A DNA stretch of 41,959 bases, taken from assembly GCA_030054295.1 (NCBI GenBank), contig JASGCE010000003.1, positions 1 through 41,959 on the forward strand. The letters run 5' to 3'. This DNA comes from Minisyncoccota bacterium (GTDB lineage: Bacteria > Pseudomonadota > Alphaproteobacteria > Elsterales > Elsteraceae). Under the pieces are notes generated by a model. It saw only the letters and a list, made by a program, of their open reading frames with translations. It was not told the origin of the DNA and searched no databases. A program made the position numbers and the translations under genes. This document shows, in pieces, positions 15,724 to 38,531 of the stretch (its first letter is position 1; every line of letters begins with the position of its first letter).

Positions 15724-15892
15724 TCAACCCCTCCAAGAAACTCTAAGGTTCGACTTCGTCTCACCAAGAGTTTCTATCCTCCCCTTCTAAAGAAGGGGAG
15801 GTAATCCAATAATCATCCCCCCTTCTTTAGAAGGGGGGAATAGTCTCACTTATCAGCTTGCTGATTAGTGAGACTAAGGGGGGTTGCCTGAC
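15724..15892. repeat. Palindromic repeats of family D (half element plus a D' variant)
   Basis: Two units fill most of the 315-bp gap between the DUF1217 gene's 3' end and prmC. The first (15724-15801) has the framework 'caacccctccaag' then a hairpin insert 'aaactct...agagttt' then 'ctatcctccccttct'. The second (15816-15892) has 'ccccccttctttagaagggggg', 'aatagt', a hairpin 'tcagcttgctga' flanked by 'ctcact' and 'agtgag', then 'actaaggggggttgcctgac'. The second is matched in reverse at 34735-34810 with a different hairpin inside. The strong G+C stems could stop transcription from either side. Confidence 0.8.
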
Positions 15893-34673: not shown

Positions 34674-34734
34674 AAGTTTGGAGTTATTCAAAGTTTCCTA
34701 AAGAAAGGTCTGAAAAAGTCATTTTTTAAAAACA

Positions 34735-34810
34735 GTCAGGCAACCCCCCTTAGTCTCACTAAGCAATAAATTGCTAAGTTCGACTATTCCCCCCTTCTGA
34801 AGAAGGGGGG
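34735..34810. repeat. Palindromic repeat D' (reverse of 15816-15892)
   Basis: It reads 'gtcaggcaacccccctta', then 'gtctcactaagcaataaatt', then 'gctaagttcgactatt', then 'ccccccttctgaagaagggggg'. The outer blocks match 15816-15892 in reverse, but the central hairpin ('aagcaataaattgctt'-like) is unrelated to the one there. It lies 13 nt past the bactofilin stop and could serve as that operon's terminator. Confidence 0.78.
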
Positions 34811-34823
34811 ATAAAGCCAAACC

Positions 34824-36979: not shown

Positions 36980-37762
36980 CTATTGATTTTTATTTAATTT
37001 TTTGCGTTCGACAAACTTGACCGAAAAAATCGACAATTCATAAAGAATCATCATCGGCACCGCCAGGGCAATCTGGCTGGTCACATCAGGGGGAGTCACC
37101 ACCGCAGCAAAGGCAAAGATCGCCACAATCGCATAGCGGCGTTTCGAGATTAAACCCTGAGAATTAACAATCCCCACCCGCGCCAACAGGGTCAGCAAAA
37201 CCGGCAGTTCAAAACTGAGGCCAAAGGCAAAAATCAGCCGCAACATAAAGGATAGATATTCACTGATCTTGGGCTGGAGAACAATCGCAATGGTCGTGGC
37301 ATCGCCATGGGTCTGAAAACTCGCCAAAAACTTCAAGGCCAGCGGCAGAATCATGTAATAGACCAGCGAGGCCCCCAGCAAAAACAAAATCGGCGTCGCA
37401 ATCAAAAATGGGTAAAAGGCCCTTCGCTCCGTCCGATAGAGTCCCGGGGCGACAAAAAGCCAAATCTGAGTCATGATAAAGGGAAAGGCCAGGCAAAGCC
37501 CCGACCACATGGCGATACGGATATTGGTGGCAAAACCCTCGGTCACGCTGGTCATTAACATCTGGGTGACGGCCATGTTCTCAGGCAGGGTCTTGAGCGG
37601 GCGAATCAAAAAATTAAGAATATTCTGGGCAAAATAAAAACAGATGCCAAAGGCAATGGCAAAGGCAATGGCCGAATTGACCAGCCTTTTACGGGCCTCG
37701 AGTAGATGGGCGAGCAAGGGCATTGAAGCCGAGGATTCAGGCGGCAAGGGATTGTCACTCAT
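36980..37762 (-). CDS. tatC: Sec-independent protein translocase TatC
   Basis: TatC recognises twin-arginine signal peptides and forms the core of the Tat export complex. The 260-residue protein has six hydrophobic segments. It keeps the conserved N-terminal LLAHLLEARKRLVNS and the intramembrane glutamate in FAFGLSFELPVLLTLLARVGIV, followed by RRYAIV and the loop with PPDV. Its start overlaps the tatB stop by 4 nt. It is followed after about 130 nt by the M23 peptidase gene on the same strand. Confidence 0.96.
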   Translation of the reverse strand: MSDNPLPPESSASMPLLAHLLEARKRLVNSAIAFAIAFGICFYFAQNILNFLIRPLKTLPENMAVTQMLMTSVTEGFATNIRIAMWSGLCLAFPFIMTQIWLFVAPGLYRTERRAFYPFLIATPILFLLGASLVYYMILPLALKFLASFQTHGDATTIAIVLQPKISEYLSFMLRLIFAFGLSFELPVLLTLLARVGIVNSQGLISKRRYAIVAIFAFAAVVTPPDVTSQIALAVPMMILYELSIFSVKFVERKKLNKNQ

Positions 37763-38130: not shown

Positions 38131-38212
38131 GGCTATTTTATGGCACAGTTAGTCGTTACCCGCAACTGGATTGCCATTTTTCAGACTGTTGACAAAATCA
38201 AAATTTACTTCA

Positions 38213-38392
38213 CCTCCCCTTCCCCAGGAAGGGGAGGATAGTCGCAGCTTGGCAGCTTGCTGCCTAGCGAGACTTGGAGGGGTTGGTTACTCTGTTGATT
38301 ATAAACAAAAAACCAACCCCTCCAAGTGAACCTAAGGCTCGACTTCGTCTTCGCTAAGGTTCACTATCCTCCCCTTCCTGGGGAAGGGGAGG
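38213..38392. repeat. Palindromic repeat family D, complete copy with different hairpins in its two arms
   Basis: Read outward to inward, both arms have the same 30-nt outer block (38213-38242 on the left) and the same 15-nt inner block 'acttggaggggttgg'. Between them lies an insert that differs completely. The left arm holds a hairpin around 'ggcagcttgctgcc'. The right arm holds one bounded by 'gaacctaag' and 'ctaaggttc' with 'cgacttcgtctt' inside. The centre (about 38288-38313) is AT-rich. The element lies between divergent tatB and the HAD phosphatase gene. The rest of the gap (38393-38531) is AT-rich and probably holds the phosphatase promoter. Confidence 0.85.
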
Positions 38393-38531
38393 TAACTTTA
38401 TTCCATAGCCAATTGTCATCAAACTGCATTCTTACTTTACCAAAAGATAAAAAACAGTTTGAAATATAATTATAATCGCCTATTATTTATAAACACGGGT
38501 AACCGTTCCACTTGAATAGAGGGAGAGTTTT

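Follow-up and report, generated by a model that had tools for sequence, protein, structure and literature searches.

Intrastrand triplex repeats of the BoxC, PIT and TM-ECO type, reportedly described by Hoyne and Maher in 2000, are the described systems closest to the element analysed here. CD and NMR experiments in vitro demonstrated the triplex of the E. coli TM repeat (Holder et al. 2015, PMC4666352), and DMS footprinting in vivo gave no protection (PMC4666352). The TM-ECO/BoxC consensus is CCCTCNCCC-N3-6-GGGNGAGGG-N3-GGGNGAGGG; the second loop of BoxC, PIT and TM-ECO has 3 nt, and published searches covered second loops of 1-6 or 0-10 nt (PMC4666352). Three other kinds of repeat have to be considered. 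GTAG/CGTC REPs, with their dimers and BIMEs, are intergenic palindromes arranged head-to-head and tail-to-tail, and their dimers are mostly heterodimers (PMC3733652). REPINs are inverted doublets which look like a copied unit and are linked to RAYT (PMC3116915). MITEs are short elements with terminal inverted repeats and many copies.

The window (the whole stretch of 41,959 nt analysed, from contig JASGCE010000003.1) carries an element which shares with BoxC, PIT and TM-ECO the order Y-R1-R2 on one strand, the G-rich composition, the intergenic and dispersed occurrence and the inverted pairs with unlike loops. However, its second loop is a variable and exchangeable hairpin of 31-37 nt, longer than the short loop of that class, and its framework is CCTCCCC or CCCCCC instead of CCCTCNCCC. 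It resembles REPs in location, dimer layout and heterodimer preference, but a REP unit has one short hairpin and no third mirror strand, while the units here have two hairpins each; the GTAG/CGTC tag is absent and ATAG precedes the slot. It looks like a copied doublet as REPINs do, although no RAYT was found in the source genome or in its relative G003. Its length of about 180 bp, terminal inverted repeats and copy number are MITE-like. No clear target-site duplication was seen at the one presence/absence locus, in Azospirillum, no parent transposase was identified, and the interior of the element consists of conserved structural modules. We consider that each arm is probably (about 0.7) a class II purine-motif intrastrand triplex repeat of the BoxC/PIT/TM-like kind, with a hairpin as second loop, and that two such arms form an inverted heterotypic pair; the folding is predicted from the sequence.

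Architecture and dispersion of the element

The sequence-only reading had described arms identical in their outer 30 nt and inner 15 nt. The measured arms were slightly longer: 31 nt outside (38212-38242 and 38363-38393) and 17 nt inside (38272-38288 and 38311-38327), each 100% complementary. The middles were, as that reading said, unrelated hairpins, TCGCAGCTTGGCAGCTTGCTGCCTAGCGAGA on the plus strand and TGAACCTTAGCGAAGACGAAGTCGAGCCTTAGGTTCA on the minus strand. On its G-rich strand each arm reads CCTCCCCTTCC-loop-GGAAGGGGAGG-AT-slot-T-GGAGGGGTTGG (Table 1). Folded as single-stranded DNA and compared with shuffled sequences, the whole element gave z = -15.4 and the single arms z = -5.1 and -5.2. 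The outer hairpin pattern matched twice in the window and never in 100 shuffles. A chance palindrome is ruled out by the perfect arms, the shuffle counts and the fold scores.

Table 1. Positions of the repeat features and of one neighbouring gene in the window
Feature	Position	Strand	Remark
Whole element	38212..38393	.	Heterotypic (A + B) inverted unit pair, head-to-head, with R2 strands inward
Arm A, Y strand CCTCCCCTTCC	38213..38223	+	From sequence; complementary to R1
Arm A, loop 1 (CCA)	38224-38226	+	
Arm A, R1 strand GGAAGGGGAGG	38227..38237	+	Watson-Crick partner of Y
Arm A, slot (second loop)	38240..38274	+	Hairpin AG-TCGCAGCTTGGCAGCTTGCTGCCTAGCGAGA-CT; TCGCAGCTTGGCAGCTTGCTGCCTAGCGAGA itself at 38242-38272
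Arm A, R2 strand GGAGGGGTTGG	38276..38286	+	Mirror of R1 with A opposite A/T, 11/11 triplets
Central spacer	38287..38312	.	AT-rich, separates both R2 strands
Arm B, R2 strand GGAGGGGTTGG	38313..38323	-	From sequence and mirror statistics
Arm B, slot (second loop)	38325..38365	-	Hairpin AG-TGAACCTTAGCGAAGACGAAGTCGAGCCTTAGGTTCA-CT, C(GAA)G triloop; TGAACCTTAGCGAAGACGAAGTCGAGCCTTAGGTTCA at 38327-38363
Arm B, R1 strand GGAAGGGGAGG	38368..38378	-	
Arm B, Y strand CCTCCCCTTCC	38382..38392	-	
Second family member	15725..15886	.	Tail-to-tail pair (outer hairpins inward); B arm on GGGGAGG framework, A arm on GGGGGGAA framework
Third family member	34741..34811	-	Single A-type unit, GGGGGGAA/AAGGGGGG framework
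TatC (PF00902)	36980-37762	-	Within the tatC-containing gene block on one side of the element

The element sits in a gap between divergent genes. On the tatC side it adjoins an ORF of 123 aa with no Pfam match, which looks TatB-like by position; the ORF on the other flank is on the plus strand, has 382 aa and resembles HAD weakly, with a score below the cut-off. A comparison with plasmids gave no match that would point to a plasmid source.

The window element belongs to a dispersed repeat family and is not isolated. A pattern demanding R1, slot and R2 found 110 single-arm units in the source genome (G000, 2.72 Mb) and 138 in a genome of another genus of the same family (G003, deposited as 'Candidatus Symbiobacter sp. 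MAG09'); these counts come from pattern searches and retrieved stretches, and the pattern itself fixed parts of R1 and R2. The reversed control of the pattern gave 0 units in both genomes. Collecting all genome-wide copies of the outer hairpin, as had been suggested, gave 14 places, 13 of them full units with a slot hairpin and one a lone hairpin. The slot TCGCAGCTTGGCAGCTTGCTGCCTAGCGAGA of arm A was found again in 14 units. A search that matched the outer hairpin loosely was unusable, as wrong-strand readings pass at 3 mismatches.

Inverted pairs are either head-to-head, with R2 inward as in the window copy, or tail-to-tail, with the outer hairpins inward, and in the tail-to-tail pairs the A arm is on a different framework, GGGGGGAA/AAGGGGGG. 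Among 385 genomes of the class, many copies of the CCTCCCC family were present only in G000 and G003, with single convincing copies in G020, G126 and G299. A scan with the CCTCCCC pattern also matched other organisms; those matches that were inspected had no Y strand or slot hairpin, and among the matches listed the real units were only in 'Candidatus Symbiobacter sp. MAG09', a name which NCBI places under Comamonadaceae, the genome itself aside.

The spacers between the outer hairpins of tail-to-tail pairs in G000 (e.g. L099, L113 and L116) are AT-rich with variable sequence. Measured between the R1 matches they are either 47-48 or 62-63 nt long, a difference of about 15 nt.

The framework and the strand that probably folds

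On the G-rich strand every arm has the order Y-R1-slot-R2, and R2 mirrors R1. When R1 is read in reverse (GGAGGGGAAGG) against R2 (GGAGGGGTTGG), each G stands opposite G and each A opposite A or T, giving 11/11 antiparallel purine-motif triplets in both arms. Over 201 units, R2 was compatible with R1 at 99.6% of positions when read as a mirror, and at 68% in direct reading. The search set no letter at the third position of R2, and there 200/201 units agreed: R1 A goes with R2 A or T in 102/102, and R1 G with R2 G in 98/99. All six framework classes are mirror-compatible, which was equalled by 2 of 720 re-pairings. The covariation is good and not overwhelming evidence, because a small number of framework classes gives few independent events and the pattern itself fixed some of the positions. 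The strand order used to define class II, namely a Y strand, its complementary purine strand and an antiparallel purine third strand as Y-R1-R2, is thus found in the sequence. A loop as long as 31-37 nt could weaken the binding of the third strand. The length of R2 also covaries with that of the stem (TTGG with GGAA stems), but this follows the split between head-to-head and tail-to-tail pairs, so it is not evidence.

The runs of G also raise the question of a G-quadruplex, in which R1 and R2 would form tetrads and the slot would be a quadruplex loop. The slot of G003 is flanked by GGGGGGG left and right, and BoxC-like copies have many GGG runs, as this reading would expect. But the GGGGAGG/GGAGGGG framework of G000 has just two runs of four G, so that a single unit cannot form three tetrads. 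Neither the complementary Y strand, which the units have, nor the mirror placement of A and T is required for a quadruplex, and NMR excluded one for the related E. coli TM repeat (PMC4666352). We regard the quadruplex as highly improbable.

Loops and mismatches of the slot hairpins tell which strand, and which kind of molecule, is likely folded. Read on the G-rich strand, apical triloops were GNA in 79 cases and TNC in 1 (31 vs 1 for unique cores), and mismatches in the slot stems were G.A in 135 cases and C.T in 6 (39 vs 6 for unique blocks), with G.A often in tandem as GA/GA after a pyrimidine. The raw P values overstate these biases and the unique counts are safer, because copies within one genome are related. 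The loops take the forms C(GNA)G and C(GNNA)G and do not specially favour GNRA; the DNA minihairpin d(GCGNAGC), which is very stable, has a C(GNA)G loop. GNA triloops and G.A mismatches together point to the G-rich strand folding as DNA. Over all genomes the slot stems also have T.T in 50 cases and A.A in 6 on the G-rich strand, mostly in a conserved CTTA..TTAG context. This T.T/A.A asymmetry falls outside the best explanation of the loop and mismatch bias.

The same data bear on an RNA-level element of REP or BIME kind, whose framework and slots would be RNA stems, forming hairpins in 3' regions which stabilise or terminate transcripts. The location speaks for it to some extent: only 1 of 60 elements overlaps an ORF of at least 90 aa, the tail-to-tail copies lie in tandem or convergent gaps (0/19 in divergent ones), and the stems are strong on either strand. 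However, the window copy is between divergent genes, the loops do not specially favour GNRA, and G.T shows no significant excess over A.C in the slot stems (33 vs 24). A mirror of R1 in R2 would not be needed by an RNA, and triplexes of the purine motif are not formed by RNA (PMC4666352). No known RNA family was recognised: no Rfam model matched at the gathering threshold, and only chance-level matches appeared up to E = 5. We think the RNA explanation improbable, and folding of the G-rich strand as DNA is preferred. These repeats are evidence, natural and from many copies, that single-stranded DNA is folded within genomes, with strand-specific loop and mismatch preferences.

The slot and the pairing of unlike hairpins

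A hairpin of 31-37 nt takes the place of the usual second loop of about 3 nt, and about 100 distinct hairpins occur in 201 units. Its borders are sharp. For the main G000 framework, entropy stays at zero through the last framework base and jumps to 1.59 bits at the first slot base, so the suggested comparison of identity inside and outside the slot came out in favour of fixed boundaries. Since the R1-slot-R2 pattern demanded framework letters, unbiased support for the boundaries comes from the search with the outer hairpin only. The first slot base is Watson-Crick paired with the last in 201/201 units, the outermost pair being AT in 98, TA in 82, CG in 20 and GC in 1. Slots within one type differ by compensated changes, and G003 has identical slots set in two frameworks which are unlike each other both before and after the slot.

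The sequence-only reading gave an account of the slot without a known class. The framework is a mirror-repeat motif of the BoxC/PIT/TM type, whose triplex is predicted, and the slot is the second loop of this motif, which explains why the slot alone is free to vary.

Two loci in G003 (L057 and L060) and several A slots in G000 carry an extra hairpin inside the slot hairpin, with 47-62 nt compared with 30-37, i.e. growth as a hairpin within a hairpin.

The two arms of a pair are combined by a rule. In G000 and G003, 63 of 66 distinct inverted pairs joined an A-type slot with a B-type slot, and the three exceptions, all in G003, joined two different B sub-types. In a third genome of the class (G058) all 22 inverted pairs had unlike second loops; among the 16 which paired hairpin with hairpin, none was homotypic against 5.3 expected (P = 0.0015), and three slot types were combined in all three unlike ways and never alike. 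In E. coli, all inverted TM pairs (5/5) join type A with type B (PMC4666352). The rule was seen earlier in five E. coli pairs and now extends to three further genomes. With it one can test which process prevents identical inverted repeats in bacterial chromosomes or removes them.

For G000, the same count of A + B pairs rules out that the arms reassort their hairpins at random. Avoidance of palindromes alone is an incomplete explanation, as pairs of like type but different sequence are also missing.

Because 63/66 pairs are A + B, unlike arms are the normal state of such repeats. This divides the earlier proposal of a fixed position at which hairpins are swapped. The swappable slot stands, with its sharp boundaries, its roughly 100 hairpins and one replacement in Azospirillum (below), but a swap as the origin of the unlike arms in the window copy is not supported. 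An exchangeable slot is supported in general, and the window copy needs no recent exchange.

BoxC-like versions and how the slots may persist

A BoxC framework whose R1 and GTGAGGG are 24-54 nt apart was found in 57/385 genomes and 51/277 genera of the class, and the reversed control gave almost none. All 102 loops analysed were distinct, and all but four of them (98) form one hairpin only (median z -2.6). In 97/102 the two bases before GTGAGGG, which were free in the search, complete GGGTGAGGG. Versions with a hairpin loop lay outside earlier triplex searches, which covered loops of up to 10 nt (PMC4666352), and candidates are now present in 51 of 277 sampled genera. The CCCTCTCCC-type framework had no match in G000. 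The CCTCCCC family of G000 and the CCCTCTCCC family share the architecture, and the replacement between strains given below belongs to the CCCTCTCCC family.

G058 connects the hairpin slot with the short second loop already known. Its 66 units on one framework comprise 29 with loops of 2-4 nt and 37 with hairpins, and the short loops include TTA and CCG, which are the E. coli types A and B. In G063 and G237, a single outer hairpin serves two units of opposite orientation and has an R2 strand to its left and to its right.

Azospirillum strains, in which the BoxC-like version is present on plasmids, allowed the comparison for recent swaps, over few loci. In the gap between uxaC and altronate dehydratase, the flanks of A. 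brasilense MTCC4039 and A. argentinense MTCC4035 agree to 97-98%, and both strains have the same left arm with its slot. In the right arm the framework is unchanged, but one strain carries TGGCGCCAACGGCGCC and the other GGCCCGCGAAGCGGGC (7/16 identical). So one hairpin was replaced at an orthologous locus, in this sister version of the repeat, and it is a whole-module replacement inside a fixed framework between strains. At the same locus other strains have a TM unit with a TTA loop of 3 nt, and B510 has an AA-type hairpin opposite an AG-type one. A second locus showed similar variety of slots, with one strain collapsed to a single hairpin. A third locus was occupied in three strains and empty in three; at this single presence/absence locus no clear target-site duplication was seen.

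At the M20 aminoacylase locus, A. brasilense MTCC4038 (L280) has a single outer hairpin, compared with a pair in L279, L281 and L282. This collapse resembles deletions of the palindrome type that are known from the TM pairs of E. coli.

These loci matter for the remaining alternative, a miniature transposable element or REPIN in which arms A and B are two ancient, different ends and the slots diverged with compensation and were never exchanged. Copying of the pair as a unit would produce the A + B rule, the compensated changes within a type agree with it, and so does the presence or absence of the element at one Azospirillum locus. On the other side, no Y1 transposase (PF01797) was found in G000 or G003, both of which are draft assemblies, the matches within the class being two, in G001 and G020. 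Ends that were never exchanged do not agree with identical slots in two G003 frameworks, with three slot types pairing in all three unlike combinations in G058, or with the orthologous slot replaced between Azospirillum strains. We judge this explanation unlikely, though less so than the RNA and quadruplex ones.

For the triplex repeat with an exchangeable second loop, we suggest the following course. When the G-rich strand becomes single-stranded, as in a lagging-strand template or in supercoiled or extruded DNA, Y and R1 would form a hairpin. The chain would then pass through the slot hairpin, which closes on itself, and return as R2, which may occupy the major groove of Y/R1 as the third, antiparallel strand (G*G:C, A*A:T, T*A:T). 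Each of the framework strands would be constrained by the other two and stay fixed, while the slot need only be a closed loop, so that its stem could drift with compensation and at times be replaced whole. The most likely routes to whole replacement would be template switching and gene conversion, for which the framework, identical in dispersed copies, would serve as the bridge. Inverted units may persist when their slot types differ, as a pair of like units would make a longer, near-perfect palindrome, which would be lost or never spread.

By analogy with what was proposed for E. coli TM, the role is most likely that of a repeat propagated by its structure, which may disturb replication locally; a benefit to the host is not needed. 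We also speculate, at somewhat less than even odds, that there is a widespread class of folded single-stranded DNA in which a triplex socket holds interchangeable hairpins, with the rule of unlike hairpins enforced by replication, recombination or a protein.

Beyond the head-to-head copies there are more palindromic repeats in inverted order, with GGAAGGTCTGAATAAGT-type hairpins in G003 (e.g. L054, L056 and L062) and CAGACTGTTGACAA-type motifs in G000 (e.g. L009 and L022), and the head-to-head element seems to be nested in a larger mosaic of repeats. A related motif, AAGAAAGGTCTGAAAAAGT, is located at 34690-34720 of the window.
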